Virus record (IMG/VR): IMGVR_UViG_3300012359_000042
Coordinates: 1 to 31,353 of that record
Reading direction: 5' to 3' (one strand)
Origin: a virus
DNA length: 31,353 nucleotides
Below are positions 10,458 to 26,912 of this stretch, one piece after another. The notes beneath the pieces were generated by a model. That model did no database searches, was not told where the DNA came from, and saw nothing but the letters and a program-made list of their open reading frames with translations. A program made the position numbers and the translations under genes. The number at the start of each line of letters is the position of its first letter. Within the stretch, counting starts at the first letter, position 1.

Positions 10458-10648
10458 ACATCTACATCGCCGTATCCGACCAGGATGGTTACACGAGCAA
10501 CATTTACGGCGCGTTCAGCACCGAGGAGAAGGCGCGGGCGGCCTGCGAGGAGGACGCTGGCAGGCCGCTCAAGTGGGCCGATGGCAGGGCAAGCCTGTAT
10601 GTCACCACCTACACGGTGCTACTCGTGAGCCTTGACGAGGCTATCTAA
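10454..10648 (+). CDS. Small hypothetical protein
   Basis: 64 residues (MNIYIAVSDQDGYTSNIYGAF...), a beta-strand opening, a helix rich in Ala/Glu (STEEKARAACEEDAG) and a hydrophobic strand at the end. The pattern resembles small phage proteins of the form strand-helix-strand with unknown function. Its end converges with the minus-strand ABC-GNAT gene, overlapping by 4 bases. Confidence 0.78.
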   Translation: MNIYIAVSDQDGYTSNIYGAFSTEEKARAACEEDAGRPLKWADGRASLYVTTYTVLLVSLDEAI

Positions 10649-11751
10649 ACCGGCAGGTACTCAAACGACCGGGTACCGAGCGAGCGTGGGTCCAGGGCAC
10701 GGGCGGTCATACCGCCCCGCTTTGGACCCACCCGCTTCCCGGTGCCGAGCTGCCTCGACCGGACGGTGGACTTCCACCGTGGTGACGCCACGAAGTAGTG
10801 CACCAGCCCAGGGTGGGCGGTGACGAACCGGTACCGGTACCCCCGGTCGGCGAGGTACTGGCCCTGCCACTCGCAAAGGCGCTTGGCGATGCCGAGTCCC
10901 TGCCAGTCGGGCAACACAACCACCCGGTGCGCCATCTGAATGTCCCGCACCTTCGGATGGGGAAAATGCCGGTACGAACTGAACGCAACTGGCCTGCCGT
11001 CGCAATACGCGGCAAAACACTTCGCCGTGGTGTGAAGGGAGGCACTCAGATAGTGATGACGTGCAAACATTCGCCAGAGGGAGCGGTCACAGGCATGGAC
11101 TTCGAGTTTGAGTGGTGGGTGGCGTTGAACCCGCCTCCACGCGAAATCACGGGCGGAAACGTCGTAGGCCCAGTCTGGCTGAAGCCACTTCTCGACATCA
11201 TAATGACAGGTAACAGCGACCAGTTGGCGGTCTGCCTTCCGCACCGTCTTCTGCACCGTGTGGGATGCCACTTTTGCGACCTGGCGGTCCACTACAGATG
11301 TGAACTCGTCGAGTACCACAAGCCCGTTGGTTTCGGCGAGAGCACGGGCGACGGTGGCGCGGAACGCTTCACCATTGGACAGGGTCCGGTAGGGCCGCAT
11401 CCACGCGGGCGGGGAACCGAACCCCACCGACGACAGCAAGCCGGTGACGTCCCGGACGCCCATCTCCGCGGGGAAGCCGTCGATGACAGCGTCGTCGGGG
11501 GGCCAGTCGTAGGTCGCTGCGACCTGGCCTGGCCACAGTTGCTGCGCCAGCAAGGTCTTACCGGCACCGGACGGGCCGTAGATCAAGCCAATGTTCCACG
11601 GGTGTTCTTCTACCGGCAGGTCGTGGTCCCACGTCAGCGTCAGCTTGTCTTCCAGCGGCACATCGAACAACCCCGACATTTGCCGGACCCGTGGTGTCAG
11701 GTGAACCGGTGATGAAACTGACACGTGAGCCTTCACGTCTGCCCCCATCAC
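10645..11751 (-). CDS. ABC-type ATPase fused to GNAT (Mom-like) domain
   Basis: 368 residues with two enzymes in one chain. N-terminal ABC-family ATPase: Walker A GPSGAGKT (59-66), a signature-like RTLSNGEAFRATVARAL (122-138), Walker B LVVLDEF (144-150) and a His in VAVTCHYD. C-terminal GNAT domain from about residue 220: FARHHYLSASLHTTAKCF, RPVAFSSYRHFPHP, and the acetyl-CoA loop WQGLGIAKRL. There are no membrane segments, so this is not a transporter. The HHYLS..F..Y..G.PVAF pattern recalls Mu Mom-type base-modification proteins. It follows a ParB-like gene by 10 bases on the minus strand. Candidate DNA-modification or anti-restriction enzyme. Confidence 0.85.
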   Translation of the reverse strand: MMGADVKAHVSVSSPVHLTPRVRQMSGLFDVPLEDKLTLTWDHDLPVEEHPWNIGLIYGPSGAGKTLLAQQLWPGQVAATYDWPPDDAVIDGFPAEMGVRDVTGLLSSVGFGSPPAWMRPYRTLSNGEAFRATVARALAETNGLVVLDEFTSVVDRQVAKVASHTVQKTVRKADRQLVAVTCHYDVEKWLQPDWAYDVSARDFAWRRVQRHPPLKLEVHACDRSLWRMFARHHYLSASLHTTAKCFAAYCDGRPVAFSSYRHFPHPKVRDIQMAHRVVVLPDWQGLGIAKRLCEWQGQYLADRGYRYRFVTAHPGLVHYFVASPRWKSTVRSRQLGTGKRVGPKRGGMTARALDPRSLGTRSFEYLPV

Positions 11752-20528: not shown

Positions 20529-22091
20529 ATGCCCACCGGATACCACAAGCACGCCACCCCCAGTCACCAGCGCATCGCCGAGAACGGCACCATCTTCCGC
20601 TGCGTCGTCGGCTCCACCGTTCACGGCATATCCGTGAAAGCCCAAGACGACCGCGACGAAATGGGAATCTGCGTAGAGCCACGCGAATACGTCATCGGCC
20701 TCCAGCGGTTCGAGCAGTACATCACCCGCACCCAGCCTGAAGGGCACCGCAGCGGCCCAGGCGATCTTGACCTCACCATCTACTGTCATAATCCAGCGAG
20801 CAAGGTTCTCACGGCACAGTTGGACTGGGCCGCAATCGGGGACTTGACCGTCGGCCAGCACCTCGTCACCTTCGATGAAGGCTCACCATCACGCCGCCGG
20901 CATCGGCACTTCTCAACAGGCATCGTGACTGCTATTGAGACGCGGATTATGGAGCGGTGGCGAGTAGTTACCTCGCAAGGAGAGACGATCGTCACGCCCG
21001 GTCACCTATTCTTCGTGCGGAGAGAATGTCAGTGCAAAACCTGCCGGGCTAACAACACCCGCCGGGCGCGCTGGCTACGTGCCGACGAGTTGCAGTCAGG
21101 AGACGCGATCTACTCGCTGCCGGTATGGGAGTCTGAGCGCTCATGGGAATCGGGCTACCTTGCGGGACAGTTTGACGCAGACGGTTGCTTGAACTTCACG
21201 GGCAGTACTTCGCGGCTCTCCTGGGCACAGAAGGCCGGGCGTCCAGACATCCCATACGTTGAGCAACTTATGGCGGGCCGTGGATTCAAGACGCGCACCA
21301 ACGGGCCAACCAGAAGTGGCTGTAGCGCCGTACATGTTGCGGGTGACTGGACCGAGCAGATGCGTTTCCTTGGCACTGTCCAACCACAACGACTACTGCG
21401 GCATCCCGAGTTGAACCGACTCTGGGAGGCCCGCAGCTTGCAGGCGTGTGGCCGGGCCACCGTACAGGAAACCGCACCACTGCCGGATGGGCCGATGGTT
21501 GCGATGGAAACTAGCACCCGCACTTACATCGCCGATGGGCTTCTCACTCACAACTCCGCCCGTAAATGGATGAACCTTGCCCTCGCCGGCAACCCCACCA
21601 TCCTCCTGCCACTGTTCGTCCCAGACGACGCCATCCTGGTGCTCCACCCGGTAGCTAAAGAACTCCTCGCCCACCCGGAAATGATCATCAGCAGGCAGGT
21701 AGGTGAACGGTTCCTCGGCTACCTGAACCGTCAGCGACTGTCGTTGCTGTCCCGCGACGGGAAAGGCCGCGACGTCACCCGCGCCGAACTAGTGGAACAG
21801 TACGGCTTTGATACCAAATTCGCCGGGCACATGGTCCGTCTCGGCCTCCAGGGCGTTGAGCTGATGGAAACCGGCCGGATCACCTTGCCCGTTCCGGAAC
21901 CCTGGCGGACCTGGATCACCGACCTGCGCGTCGGCAAGCACACCCAGGCCGAAGCCCTCGAAGTCACCGTCAGTCTCGAAGAAGCACTGAAGCGACTCCG
22001 TATCACCTCCGAACTGCCTGAACGCCCCGACCGGGAAGCAGCCGACCGGTGGCTCATCAGCACCTACGAAACCCTCTGGGCGCAAGGATGA
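20529..22091 (+). CDS. Nucleotidyltransferase interrupted by an intein
   Basis: 520 residues. The extein (residues 1-85 joined to 343-520) is a Pol-beta-like nucleotidyltransferase of the COG3541 type: VVGSTVHGIS (GS motif, 27-36), DDRDEMGI (41-48) with paired acids, and the third strand DLDLTIY (79-85) continuing after splicing into SARKWMNLALAGNPTILLPL. It transfers a nucleotide to an unknown acceptor, in the cytoplasm. The intein (86-342) splits the enzyme exactly in the catalytic strand, so splicing is needed for activity. Starts from a leaderless promoter; its TGA overlaps the next ATG. Confidence 0.9.
   Translation: MPTGYHKHATPSHQRIAENGTIFRCVVGSTVHGISVKAQDDRDEMGICVEPREYVIGLQRFEQYITRTQPEGHRSGPGDLDLTIYCHNPASKVLTAQLDWAAIGDLTVGQHLVTFDEGSPSRRRHRHFSTGIVTAIETRIMERWRVVTSQGETIVTPGHLFFVRRECQCKTCRANNTRRARWLRADELQSGDAIYSLPVWESERSWESGYLAGQFDADGCLNFTGSTSRLSWAQKAGRPDIPYVEQLMAGRGFKTRTNGPTRSGCSAVHVAGDWTEQMRFLGTVQPQRLLRHPELNRLWEARSLQACGRATVQETAPLPDGPMVAMETSTRTYIADGLLTHNSARKWMNLALAGNPTILLPLFVPDDAILVLHPVAKELLAHPEMIISRQVGERFLGYLNRQRLSLLSRDGKGRDVTRAELVEQYGFDTKFAGHMVRLGLQGVELMETGRITLPVPEPWRTWITDLRVGKHTQAEALEVTVSLEEALKRLRITSELPERPDREAADRWLISTYETLWAQG
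20784..21554 (+). other. Intein with LAGLIDADG-like motif
   Basis: 257 residues starting at Cys86 and ending with His-Asn (341-342), followed by Ser343 as +1 residue. N-terminal splicing block ASKVLTAQLDWAAIGDLTVG, block B ETIVTPGHLFFV with the TxxH signature, block F-G TYIADGLLTHN. One endonuclease motif, LAGQFDADG (211-219), is visible; the second is not obvious, so the homing activity may be reduced. The inferred spliced junction Tyr-Ser restores a continuous nucleotidyltransferase strand. Confidence 0.92.
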
Positions 22092-23446: not shown

Positions 23447-23610
23447 ACACGCAAACGCAGAACAGTCAAGGTGAATGGGTGCCGTCCATCCCGGTGCCGT
23501 TCTACTCTTGGTTCCCCCGGTACCGCTGCCCCGAATGTCAGGCGGCGTACTGGACACGCCCCGGGTACCGGGGACACTACGCGCTCGCGCATATTCTGGG
23601 GACACCTTAA
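23443..23610 (+). CDS. C2H2-type zinc-finger microprotein
   Basis: 55 residues with YRCPECQAAYWTRPGYRGHY followed by ALAHILG: C-x2-C-x12-H-x4-H, a good C2H2 finger of the kind found in phage regulators. ATGA overlap with the preceding gene. Possibly DNA-binding. Confidence 0.75.
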   Translation: MNTQTQNSQGEWVPSIPVPFYSWFPRYRCPECQAAYWTRPGYRGHYALAHILGTP

Positions 23611-23614
23611 AACG

Positions 23615-23623
23615 TGGTATACT
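23615..23623 (+). promoter_or_regulatory. Leaderless promoter for the RAMP-array locus
   Basis: TGGTATACTAG, 5 bases before ATG 23629. It is the only clear promoter before array A, the RAMP gene and array B, and the next strong terminator is at 26565, so the ~3-kb unit is probably read from here. Confidence 0.82.
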
Positions 23624-23628
23624 AGAGT

Positions 23629-23865
23629 ATGAGTGAATATCAGGACCCGGTGCGGCAGGCGGTCGAGACATACTTCACCGAAAACCAGTCCGTCATATCC
23701 GCCGTTGCCGCAAAAGAACTCATCGACACCATCCTGCCCAGCAGCACGCTCCGCGGATGGCTATGGGGTAGGCGGTACGAAACCCTCACCGCCTACATCA
23801 CTCACCTGAGCCGCATGACCGGCGCACGTGACGCCCGCGACACACAGAAAGGAGCCTTCGCCTAA
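23629..23865 (+). CDS. Small helical protein at head of RAMP-array locus
   Basis: 78 residues (MSEYQDPVRQAVETYFTENQ, then VISAVAAKELIDTILPSSTL and RGWLWGRRYETLTAYITHLSRM). The N-terminal half looks like a helical, helix-turn-helix-like domain with a Trp/Arg turn. It starts from the leaderless promoter and ends at TAA 23863-23865, after which the same frame stays open and coding-like to 24171. Residues 56-62 (YITHLSR) resemble the first variable block of array A. Function unknown; a DNA-binding or regulatory role is only a guess. Confidence 0.8.
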   Translation: MSEYQDPVRQAVETYFTENQSVISAVAAKELIDTILPSSTLRGWLWGRRYETLTAYITHLSRMTGARDARDTQKGAFA

Positions 23866-24171
23866 CAGGTCGAGCAGCTCGAAGGTGCCATCGCGGCGGC
23901 CGAAGCCGCCGGCAACAGCGAACCTATCCACGAAATCTCCAAACTCTGGCACTGCGCCAACCAGGACGGCCGGCCGGTGCGGAAGCGTCTCGGTGACATG
24001 AACCGGACTGAAGTCAGATTCGTTCAGCATCGGGCCGAAGCCAACGTCCGGTACTACCAGCGAAGAATCAGATTCCTCGATCTGCTCGCCGAACGACTCG
24101 ACGACACCCAGACCGTTTCCGACGTGTTCTCAGCCGAGGAGCTTCAGGCCGTTCTCGATTCGATCACCTGA
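23866..24171 (+). other. In-frame continuation after TAA (101 codons)
   Basis: Directly after the TAA the same frame reads QVEQLEGAIAAAEAAGNSEP, then HEISKLWHCANQDGRPVRKR and a helical C-terminus to TGA 24171. Composition and helical pattern look like real coding sequence from the first codon, yet no ATG, GTG or TTG occurs in frame until GTG 23977. Either one 180-residue gene carries a nonsense mutation or programmed readthrough, or a second protein starts at GTG 23977 (64 residues) by reinitiation. AAAGGAG lies 10 bases before the TAA. Its stop codon overlaps the first anchor of array A. Confidence 0.6.
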
Positions 24172-24890
24172 CTACTCATCCCACCCCCACCCACTCCTGC
24201 CCCGCACGACCAGCCGCTCCTGGCCTCCCCCACCCTTACCGACAAGCCACCCCTACCCGGCCCGACCCGGGCGACTGACCTGACCGATTCGGCCCCGCCC
24301 CCGCGACGAACCTGACCGACCCCAACCCCCGCCGCTCCCGCCCGGACGACGCACCGCCCCGCCCCAGACCTGCCCCGGCCGACTATCCATGTCGCCCCGC
24401 CCCGACCCCTGCGACTGCCCATCCCTGCCCCGCCCGCACCCGGCGACGCGCCCGGCCGTTCCGCACCGAACCATGCGACTTCACTGTCCACCCCACCCCG
24501 CCACCTTCCTTCACGCCCCGACAAGCCCATCCCGACCCGTTCTGTCCCCCGCGACGACCCGCGCCTGCGACCAGCCAGCCCCGGCCTACCCCACCCGCGC
24601 CGACGAGCCCCGCCATTTCGACCACCCGCGCCGACCCAGCCCAGGCCAACCCCCGCGACTACCCAGCCCAGCCCGAGCGACAGACCCTACCCCCCCCACC
24701 CTGGCGACGACCCATACCCTTCCGGCCCTCACCCCCGCGACAAGCCGGCCCAACCCGCCCCTGCTCCTGCGACGAGCCCTGCCGAAACCCGGCCGCTCCT
24801 TCCCGCGCGACGCACCGCCCACCCCTCCCCATGCCTGTCCCGAACGACTAACCGCGCCGCGCCACCCAAGCACCTTCCCACGACAAAATC
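24169..24890 (+). repeat. Array A: CGAC blocks of triplets separated by CC
   Basis: By hand I place 23 anchors (22 CGAC, first one TGAC overlapping the preceding stop) at 24169, 24207, 24240, 24272, 24304, 24347, 24380, 24412, 24444, 24476, 24519, 24552, 24568, 24601, 24619, 24656, 24678, 24705, 24738, 24770, 24808, 24845, 24881. Each block reads CGAC-NNN-(CC-NNN)n. Intervals are mostly 32/33 bases (6 triplets), with 37/38, 43, 27, 22 and 16-18. About 91 of 110 inter-triplet positions are exactly CC and most others end in C. No block repeats another, so triplets are variable. The 5-base rhythm excludes protein coding. The last three or four blocks decay before the RAMP gene's ribosome-binding site. 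Confidence 0.93.
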
Positions 24891-24909
24891 ACCCAAAAGG
24901 AGAACCGAA

Positions 24910-25617
24910 ATGCCATCTGTTTTTGCTGATCTTCAGTCCCGCGCTTGGCCCTACCGCTACGTTGGCCGCCTTCACGTTGCCACCCTTTGCGGCGGCGTCC
25001 CCGCCGACGAGAAGCAGGTGACCGGGTGGATCTCAGCAAAGCTGAAGGACACCCGGTCGCCTGGCGAAATCTCCGAACTGGTGCTCCGCACCATGGCTGA
25101 CCGTGCCGCCGCCGGTGACGCCATCACCCAAGACCAGGCCATCGCTGAAGTGGCCGGGTCCATGGTCGGGCAGAACGGGTTTAAACAGGACCGGGCCGGC
25201 TTGTTCATCGAAGGGCGGCAGTTGAAGTCCGCCTTGAAGGAAGCCGTCTCGGTGGCGGTCGCTGCGAACAAGCTGCGCAAGGGCGGCTGGGGCGTCACCA
25301 AGAAGGGGCTCTACTCCTTCGTCGCTGAGCATGTGTTCGTCGCCGAGGAGAAGCTGCACCTGATGCGCGACGGCAGCCACCTCGACCACCCCGACGGCAC
25401 TCTCCAAAAGATGGTGCACACGTGGCGTGGCGACGCCATTTCCTACGAGGACTTCTGCCACGAAGTGGATTTGGACTTCACCATCATGTCCGACTACCAG
25501 TTTTCCCGCGACGAGTGGGGGCTTATTTGGTTGACCGGTCAGCTAGAGGGCATCGGCGCGTCCAGATCGCAGGGTTTTGGCCGCTATGAGGTGGTTCGCT
25601 GGGATCAGGAAAGCTAA
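24910..25617 (+). CDS. RAMP (Cas7-like) protein between two arrays
   Basis: 235 residues. Three features fit the RAMP/Cas7 superfamily, best matched to Csm3/Cmr4/Csf2-type proteins: the opening strand YRYVGRLHVATLCGGVPADE (15-34), the conserved loop FIEGRQLKSALKEA (99-112; compare IPGSSLKGALR in Csm3/Cmr4), and the C-terminal glycine-rich loop EGIGASRSQGFGRYEVV (213-229). No nuclease motif, HD or Cas10 partner is visible. Such proteins coat guide RNA and hold it in a fixed register. AAGGAG is 8 bases before ATG. It lies alone among phage genes, flanked on both sides by periodic arrays, so it probably binds their transcript. Confidence 0.82.
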   Translation: MPSVFADLQSRAWPYRYVGRLHVATLCGGVPADEKQVTGWISAKLKDTRSPGEISELVLRTMADRAAAGDAITQDQAIAEVAGSMVGQNGFKQDRAGLFIEGRQLKSALKEAVSVAVAANKLRKGGWGVTKKGLYSFVAEHVFVAEEKLHLMRDGSHLDHPDGTLQKMVHTWRGDAISYEDFCHEVDLDFTIMSDYQFSRDEWGLIWLTGQLEGIGASRSQGFGRYEVVRWDQES

Positions 25618-25621
25618 CACC

Positions 25622-26560
25622 CGACCAGCCGGACCTTCCCGGCCCCGGCCTACCCGAACCGACGAAATCGCGCTCGGCCTGCCCGCCCATATGACTGGCC
25701 TTGCCACCCCGGCCCCATCCATGCCGAACCGACCCACCTCACCTGCCCAAGTCACCCCACGCGACTACCCACTCCGGCCCTTCCCGCGTGACGAATCAGG
25801 CCGTCCCCGTTCGCACCAATCCCCCACGACCAGCCATCCCCTCCCGGCCACCCTGCCACACCGTACCGACAGGCCCAGTCCGCCCATGCCACCCCGTAAC
25901 CGACATGCCGTGCCGTCCCTGTCCGAGTCGTGCCAAGACGACGAGCCATCCCAGCCCCAGTCCGCCCCTACCGACGTGCCGCGTCATGCCTGCCCGCCCC
26001 GGGCCTCGTGACAAGCCATCCCTGTCCCGCCCGCTCCGCGTGACAAGTCGAGCCGCTCCTGCCCTGCCCAAGCCACACGACTACACCCCCCGGCCCTGGC
26101 CCATCCTCCCCTGGCCCGACCGACCATGCTTGGCCGCTCCTGCCCTGCCCGCACCCCCACGACTACACCCACCGGCCCAACCCGAACCGAACGACTACTC
26201 TGGCCACCCCGCGCCTTCCCGCCCCCGCGACCCCCCAAGCCGACACGGCCCGCCCCCGGACGACGGACCACGCCGCGCCCCCCCCACTGACAAGTCCGAC
26301 CGCCCCACCCCCGCCCGCGTGACGAACCTGGACGTGCCGACCCAGCCCCTCCGACAGTCCTCGCCAGCACCGTCCACCCCAACCCGGACGACAAACCGGC
26401 CCTCTCCGGCCCGTCCCGTTCCTTACGACGAACCCTCCCGCTCCCATCCCTACGACCGACCGGCCCGTTCCGCACCCTTCCACTCCCTCGACAGAACAAG
26501 CCGGGCCGACCCTGTTCCACCCGACATGCCATCCCGTTCCCTTCCACCCCCGGCGACCTA
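25622..26560 (+). repeat. Array B: CGAC/TGAC blocks of triplets separated by CC
   Basis: 28 anchors placed by hand at 25622, 25660, 25692, 25730, 25762, 25789, 25827, 25867, 25901, 25939, 25972, 26009, 26041, 26078, 26121, 26160, 26192, 26228, 26261, 26288, 26320, 26352, 26389, 26426, 26453, 26489, 26522, 26554; those at 25692, 25789, 26009, 26041, 26288 and 26320 are TGAC. Intervals are mostly 32/33 or 36-38, four-triplet-plus blocks of 27 and one of 43. About 117 of 140 inter-triplet positions are CC, excluding the irregular block at 25827. It starts 5 bases after the RAMP stop and ends 5 bases before a terminator stem. Confidence 0.93.
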
Positions 26561-26564
26561 TCGA

Positions 26565-26600
26565 AACGCCGCCCGGAGCATGCTCCGGGCGGCGTTTTTT
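26565..26600 (+). terminator. Strong intrinsic terminator ending the array locus
   Basis: A perfect 16-base-pair palindrome AACGCCGCCCGGAGCA/TGCTCCGGGCGGCGTT followed by TTTTTT. The only classical terminator with a long T tract in the window, placed immediately after array B; it would give the array transcript a fixed 3' end. Confidence 0.93.
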
Positions 26601-26677
26601 ATTGTCCGAAACCAAGGGCTTCCGTTCTTACCCGCCGGTGACGGAAGGCAAGTCACCGCAGGTCAAGGGCACCTCGC

Positions 26678-26686
26678 TGGTATACT
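26678..26686 (+). promoter_or_regulatory. Leaderless promoter TGGTATACT
   Basis: TGGTATACTAC, 7 bases before ATG 26694. First promoter after the array terminator. A short ATG at 26689 would give only two codons and is ignored. Confidence 0.8.
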
Positions 26687-26693
26687 ACATGTC

Positions 26694-26912
26694 ATGACCG
26701 GCATTCCCGAGGGAACAACCTGCCAGTACTGCGACCACCTAGCCACCGAAACTGTCGTCGATTCGGTGATGGACTGGGTTCACGGACACGCCAGCTACCT
26801 GTGCAAACACTGCATGCTGGAAGGATTCATTCACCAGGCCGAGGACATGGCCGCCAAGATCCCAGGGTGGCGCGAAGAACTCAAGGCCGCTTGCCCGCCG
26901 GTGGAGAAGTGA
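26694..26912 (+). CDS. Zinc-knuckle protein
   Basis: 72 residues with CQYCDHLA (residues 10-13) and CKHCMLEG, two CxxC pairs about 27 residues apart, a zinc-ribbon arrangement. The long open frame extending upstream to 25701 is an artefact of array B. Leaderless start at ATG 26694. Confidence 0.8.
   Translation: MTGIPEGTTCQYCDHLATETVVDSVMDWVHGHASYLCKHCMLEGFIHQAEDMAAKIPGWREELKAACPPVEK

Follow-up and report, generated by a model that had tools for sequence, protein, structure and literature searches.

The window studied here, the full IMG/VR record IMGVR_UViG_3300012359_000042 of 31,353 bases, carries a locus that very likely represents a phage-encoded, RNA-guided system of the VIPR type; no transcript data are available for it. 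VIPR (Viral Interference Programmable Repeat; bioRxiv 2026.04.26.720920 / PMC13142463) combines a phage RAMP protein, a vap gene, and guide RNAs built of pentameric repeats. The window system is probably VIPR in kind and appears to be a distinct form other than type II, its expression, transcribed strand, and activity being inferred. These data confirm VIPR independently from raw sequence and add a form, rich in guides and largely uncharted, that occurs in dozens of environmental phages and in at least one Streptacidiphilus genome. The codon frame of the targets is shown in the stored triplets without experiment.

Organization of the locus

The features of the locus are listed in Table 1. All of them lie on the + strand in the order TATACT box, vap, array 1, ribosome-binding site, vipr, array 2, and hairpin with T6. 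The first anchor of array 1 overlaps the vap stop codon, and the final remnant of this array reaches the vipr ribosome-binding site. Hairpins 3' of downstream arrays are not general in the family, the exceptional cases being four of 27. No Rfam families were found in the region 23500-26800.

Table 1. Features of the VIPR-type locus and the two array blocks with recognizable targets
Feature	Position	Strand	Description	Basis
TATACT	23618..23623	+	-10-box-like; role as operon promoter inferred	Read in sequence, a few bases 5' of the vap ATG
vap	23629..24171	+	Accessory gene, all-helical protein	Homologues upstream of vipr/array; fold of a relative
Guide array 1	24169..24894	+	22 blocks, CGAC/TGAC + NNN(CCNNN)n	Sequence, lag-5 test, Viterbi parse
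AAGGAG	24897..24902	+	Ribosome-binding site of vipr	Read in sequence, immediately 3' of array 1
vipr	24910..25617	+	235-aa RAMP protein, glycine-rich loop GIGASRSQGFG	AlphaFold, Foldseek
Guide array 2	25622..26562	+	28 blocks, make-up as array 1	Sequence, lag-5 test, Viterbi parse
Block 25622	25622..25659	+	CAG GGA TTC GGC CGG TAC GAA = QGFGRYE, Vipr glycine-rich loop	First-two-base match 14/14
Block 25692	25692..25729	+	TGG TTG ACC GGC CAT ATG GAA = WLTGHME	Own vipr WLTGQLE, 13/14
Hairpin + T6	26564..26600	+	14-bp GC hairpin, intrinsic terminator	+ strand end of array 2

The arrays were parsed by a small Viterbi model, in which a block is CGAC or TGAC followed by NNN-CC-NNN-CC. The resulting 50 blocks, 22 of them within 24169-24881 and 28 within 25622-26570, mostly contain 5-8 triplets each; seven have a TGAC anchor. 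CC accounts for 226 of the 260 separators (87%), the others being mainly TC (17) and AC (12), and the closed blocks are 32 (n=13), 33 (n=8), 36-38 (n=14), 27 (n=4), or 43 (n=3) bases long. The CC-CC lag-5 ratio is 1.70 in array 1 and 1.73 in array 2, compared with 1.03+-0.09 and 1.05+-0.09, respectively (largest value 1.33), in 500 second-order Markov simulations per array that kept the dinucleotide or trinucleotide content. The parse and the simulations uphold the first-pass annotation, which had described two CGAC-led arrays with a strict five-base NNN-CC rhythm and had proposed a lag-5 comparison with shuffled sequence as a check: the signal is present and well above the simulations. The annotation's counts were right within one or two. 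Its seven TGAC anchors and 21 intervals of 32/33 bases are exact, its 51 anchors correspond to the 50 parsed blocks and its 15 intervals of 36-38 bases to 14, and its estimate of CC separators had been about 208 of 250. Odd intervals of 9, 13, and 23 bases result from several printed CGACs being chance GAC triplets after a separator.

Adjacent blocks do not carry on one target, and since neighbors do not extend the same target, the blocks appear to be individual guides. No structured tail was found between the window blocks, and the segments tried gave no convincing fold. Most relatives are punctuated as (NNNCC)n+GAC with a block length of 5n+3, compared with the mix of 5n+2 and 5n+3 in the window. 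Guides of the family mostly have 5-13 repeats, with up to about 80 blocks per locus. Separators in some other phages of the family are AC or TC instead of CC, so that conservation is stronger for the rhythm than for the letters. For instance, in two phages of lower GC (45-46%; loci L019 and L023) the separator is mostly AC, with the CGAC punctuation kept.

The AlphaFold model of Vipr, run with 59 relatives, has a pLDDT of 84.5, and its 50 best Foldseek matches in the PDB are all Cas7-type RAMPs (best E 1.7e-6) from type III, type VII, or Cas7-11/gRAMP complexes. The fold predicted by the model is that of Cas7/Csm3 RAMPs. The GIGASRSQGFG loop is the conserved core of the family, and the locus has a single RAMP homologue. 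The PADLOC profiles of Cas6, Csm3, and Csm4 match the family weakly, in up to 21 of 59 members, and the window Vipr was assigned to no Pfam or PHROG family. The family profile gives only a weak match (E 0.0068, probability 5.6%), aligned at the C-terminal glycine-rich loop region, to the 195-aa protein KT454805 28474-29061, which we take to be the Vipr of SUSP1.

A vap homologue lies directly 5' of vipr or the array, on the same strand, in about 60 vipr loci. No Pfam match was found for vap, and the structure of a Vap relative has no match in the PDB. In most relatives vap is one open frame; the window gene is split by an in-frame TAA at 23863-23865, which may reflect either a broken copy or an error in the contig.

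Recurrence of the arrays beside RAMP genes

The association of arrays with vipr was found independently of protein sequence. A DNA pattern comprising one block and the next anchor, with no protein information, retrieved 12 of 2.9 million IMG/VR contigs, nine of which carry vipr. The other three (L010, L011, and L013) were considered as possible exceptions, L013 as an array without vipr, and were rejected, the array being situated at the contig edge in all of them; in L011, vap adjoins the edge array. The pattern, sought across viral contigs, occurs beside RAMP genes in related phages.

A search with the RAMP alignment identified 77 viral loci (about 70 viral contigs), most of them with arrays. 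Single-protein scans of viral contigs and genome contigs gave no matches, so alignments are required. The only match among isolate phages is Microcystis phage Mae-JY09, whose RAMP protein (32% identity) is followed by a like array, and no match was found in plasmids. The search of genomes yielded one bacterial locus, in Streptacidiphilus carbonis NBRC 100919. This sole locus from the genome collection (L092, NZ_BBPM01000058), in which part of the array reads N, provides an array in a culturable host, open to study.

The array usually sits between the accessory gene and the RAMP gene, extending in about 40 loci from vap to the vipr ribosome-binding site; the median gap from the array to the vipr start is 26 bases, and the vipr-sense strand carries CC in 60 of 72 loci. 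The L028 arrays (1-234 and 2083-2965) have GG on this strand and lie outside the vap-vipr pair, and therefore array orientation is not fixed in the family. Weaker antisense runs were observed in L068, L070/L071, and L080.

Stored triplets are codons in register

Bases 1, 2, and 3 of the triplets behave as codon positions 1, 2, and 3, that is, the triplets are codons in register. In a test that uses no target database, the GC content of triplet base 3 depends on the phage GC content with a slope of 1.30 (r 0.70, 61 loci), compared with slopes of 0.57 and 0.59 for bases 1 and 2. These slopes could partly reflect the composition beside the separators, but a neighbor effect alone would not steepen base 3 only.

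Guide matches in competing mobile elements include vipr, a probable vap, a C5-methyltransferase, an integrase-like gene, a P-loop gene, and ImmA/IrrE; they are shown as sequence matches, pairing being inferred, and the methyltransferase, P-loop, and integrase-like names come from motifs read by eye. In the vipr, methyltransferase, P-loop, and ImmA matches the first two bases of the triplets agree and base 3 falls on the wobble base. Only two of the 50 window blocks have a recognizable target, and in both cases it is a vipr gene (Table 1). Block 25622 matches all first and second bases in 12 vipr genes, including its own, and differs at base 3 only. Two of its seven third bases match the own vipr. 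Given the match at bases 1 and 2, the block would be self-targeting if base 3 is unread; this self-match argues either for reading of base 3 or for autoregulation. For block 25692, the predicted rival site WLTGHMEG[..]GA had 0 matches in IMG/VR.

Targets of the same kind were identified for arrays of other phages. In eight vipr genes, the antisense strand agrees at 16/16 positions with an eight-triplet block of L030, which has two mismatches to its own vipr. Blocks of L017 and L081 correspond to the antisense strand of a vipr and probably a vap gene, with two mismatches each. The ten triplets of block 6083 in L077 spell NAADYGVPQT, a C5-methyltransferase motif (20/20), and block 4680 in L035 is the antisense of the P-loop VRGPHGLGK(S) (18/18), with base 3 at codon position 3 in both. 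Block 4427 of the Streptacidiphilus locus is near an integrase-like site, with three mismatches. Arrays of two different contigs (L024:4406 and L030:4732) both contain the antisense code of the ImmA/IrrE motif HELGHxVxH. This guide pattern occurs in at least 120 IMG/VR contigs. Of 80 matches inspected, 71 are within ORFs of >=300 bases and in the frame predicted; the one match submitted to Pfam was identified as Peptidase_M78 + HTH_3, a regulator of the XRE plus ImmA/IrrE kind.

The bulk statistics of target searches are modest, as the guides are short and the true targets mostly unsampled. In a 2-Mb target scan, four matches against none in shuffles were found at E<0.001 and eight against four at E<0.01, and other masks yield similar totals at weaker thresholds. 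Blocks of 7+ triplets gave 25 vap/vipr matches, compared with 17 in reordered controls. No excess under any skip rule was detected for 7+ triplet blocks against 0.74 Mb of vipr flanks, nor any overall excess for 6+ triplets against vipr genes, since short guides are noise-limited in such global scans. A pattern shared by L033 and L034 had only 3 IMG/VR matches. A candidate target of window block 24304 was rejected: its 31 IMG/VR matches mostly fall in other families and place the third base at codon position 2, and none is claimed. A 16-base pattern can therefore match conserved families out of phase, and single patterns can mislead.

The role of base 3 is less clear. Among 11 pairs of guides at shared sites that are >=80% alike (three pairs from one site), there are 7, 9, and 21 mismatches at bases 1, 2, and 3, respectively. 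At codons whose third base matters, those that are two-fold or one-fold, the amino acid is retained in 24 of 26 guide codons, and third bases agree with the database relative in 40 of 66 cases. The criterion for selecting the matches behind these tallies was bases 1 and 2, but some matches were picked by eye. Being coding-consistent and often identical to relatives, base 3 is probably target-derived. In one ImmA guide the motif reads HELGQ, a sequence not expected in a functional HExxH metalloprotease, and this argues for tolerance at base 3.

Proposed mechanism, alternatives, and known systems

We suggest that vap, array 1, vipr, array 2, and the terminator form an operon with transcription on the + strand. 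Its transcript would be cleaved at the CGAC punctuation to give about 50 guides, most of them with 5-8 repeats. By inference from the published VIPR mechanism, Vipr would oligomerize along the guide, one subunit per five-base NNN-CC repeat, with CC protein-bound and unpaired and NNN presenting three target bases. Successive triplets correspond to successive target codons on either strand, which is shown in sequence; pairing is inferred. As the triplets are in codon register, the third base would fall on the wobble base and may mismatch. Guide-loaded Vipr is inferred to recognize dsDNA in genes of competing phages or prophages. Among these are lysogeny regulators and the vipr genes of rivals, for which several guides show sequence matches. 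No nuclease domain was recognized in Vipr or Vap, so the inferred effect is binding and transcriptional silencing. The proposal of the first-pass annotation that a guide-like array serves the RAMP protein between its halves is supported by the RAMP fold, the recurrent pairing, the codon-register matches to phage genes, and published VIPR; transcription and loading of the array are still inference.

The transcribed strand is the weakest step of this mechanism, as the minus strand would yield GGNNN, nearer to the published consensus. It is a real, if less likely, possibility that the same system makes its guide RNA from the opposite strand, as 5'-(NNNGG)n-GTCG-3', with the GGY/NN layout, a less restricted skip base, and GTC(G) serving as a minimal 3' tail. 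The minus strand indeed has the order GG, skip base, NN, as in GGY/NN, and its invariant element is 3', as in SUSP1; the L028 arrays and the weaker antisense runs mentioned above also fit. Against this, CC is on the sense strand in most loci, the T-run of the window terminator points in the + direction after array 2, and, where the array fills the space between vap and the vipr ribosome-binding site, there is no room for an antisense promoter outside vipr. Another reading that cannot be dismissed is that base 3 is also read, each repeat presenting three contiguous bases with CC alone skipped and no 1-nt skip. The target-derived third bases support it, and it would spare the own vipr from block 25622; the preference of mismatches for base 3 in guide pairs, the HELGQ guide where the metalloprotease needs HELGH, and the one-base skip of published type II VIPR (PMC13142463) speak against it.

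Readings without a VIPR-type guide system fare worse. That the arrays have no guide function and represent compositional drift or a coding repeat of low complexity, rich in C or proline, is very improbable. The array region is 51-54% C, and long open frames traverse the arrays because C-rich DNA is short of stops; however, the period is 5 and not the 3 of coding DNA, the arrays recur, with AC, TC, or CC separators, beside a single RAMP family in phages that differ in base composition, and the triplets have the codon statistics of other genes and match conserved phage motifs exactly. The first-pass annotation called the arrays not coding, which is correct for the DNA itself, yet every triplet is a target-gene codon. 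A CRISPR or TIGR-Tas array, which would likewise account for tandem, punctuated, phage-borne guides, can practically be ruled out. The repeats are only four bases, compared with about 20-40 in CRISPR, so that the earlier exclusion of ordinary CRISPR also held; cas1/cas2 were not recognized among the window proteins searched, which were not all proteins; and the partner is a lone Cas7-like RAMP rather than a Nop-domain Tas protein.

Nearly all features of the window system are shared with VIPR: a lone phage-borne RAMP gene with one accessory gene; flanking pentameric repeats in which constant and hypervariable bases alternate; and guides directed at rival phages, at lysogeny regulators, and at other VIPR systems. 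The vrRNAs of VIPR consist of YNNGG repeats with a 1-nt skip aligned to wobble bases, and they target rival phages and other VIPR systems, type II silencing transcription (PMC13142463). The wobble position of the skipped base on both strands is a further likeness, with the reservation that here it is undecided whether base 3 is skipped. A characterized type II guide consists of 9-16 YNNGG repeats with a structured 3' tail, measures about 100 nt, and has only Y as the skip base, and guides are few per locus (PMC13142463); in SUSP1, which we checked, the YNNGG tracts are on the vipr-sense strand. The window, in contrast, has NNNCC on the vipr-sense strand (antisense GGNNN), punctuation by CGAC/GAC only without a structured tail, dozens of compact guides instead of a few long ones, and a base 3 that is unconstrained and target-derived, not limited to Y. 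It is for these differences in consensus letters, punctuation, guide number and length, and base 3 that we file the system as VIPR but not type II. The same paper (PMC13142463) cites "a related consensus", "staggered arrays with overlapping vrRNAs", and seven types, and the window form may be one of them.

The RAMP fold and the glycine-rich loop are shared with class 1 CRISPR effectors (Cas7/Csm3/Cmr4, types III and VII), for which periodic interruption of guide pairing by subunit thumbs has been published. The window differs in having one RAMP, no recognized CRISPR repeats or adaptation genes, and a five-base repeat whose three-base variable part is encoded in the array itself. TIGR-Tas (PMC12045711) also has phage-encoded compact guide arrays next to a single effector; however, Tas has a Nop domain, and the tigRNA carries two spacers and no pentameric code. 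These distinctions rest partly on that paper and partly on general background, without a sequence search.

A bolder interpretation, which we consider no more than possible, is a VIPR clade with a codon-by-codon code, whose guides would retain every base of the target codons, be copied from targets by an unknown Cas1-free acquisition, and be read at three bases per repeat, with partial tolerance of synonymous escape and with third bases distinguishing self from rival vipr. Loci with tens of guides, many keeping their third bases, make guide acquisition and the choice between a one-base and a zero-base skip testable. Guides against rival vipr and probably rival vap genes suggest warfare among guide systems.

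The terminase of the window virus has 37-40% identity to those of Gordonia and Mycobacterium phages, and the host is likely an actinobacterium. Outside the locus, the gene at 10645-11751 (-) encodes an ABC-type ATPase part fused to an acetyltransferase part (phrog_11143, unknown function). The gene at 20529-22091 (+) encodes an RlaP-type nucleotidyltransferase, and its frame has a weak Hint-domain match at residues 84-196; the matching part terminates in ...LLTHN-S. Judging by its sequence alone, this could be an intein inside an RNA-repair nucleotidyltransferase.
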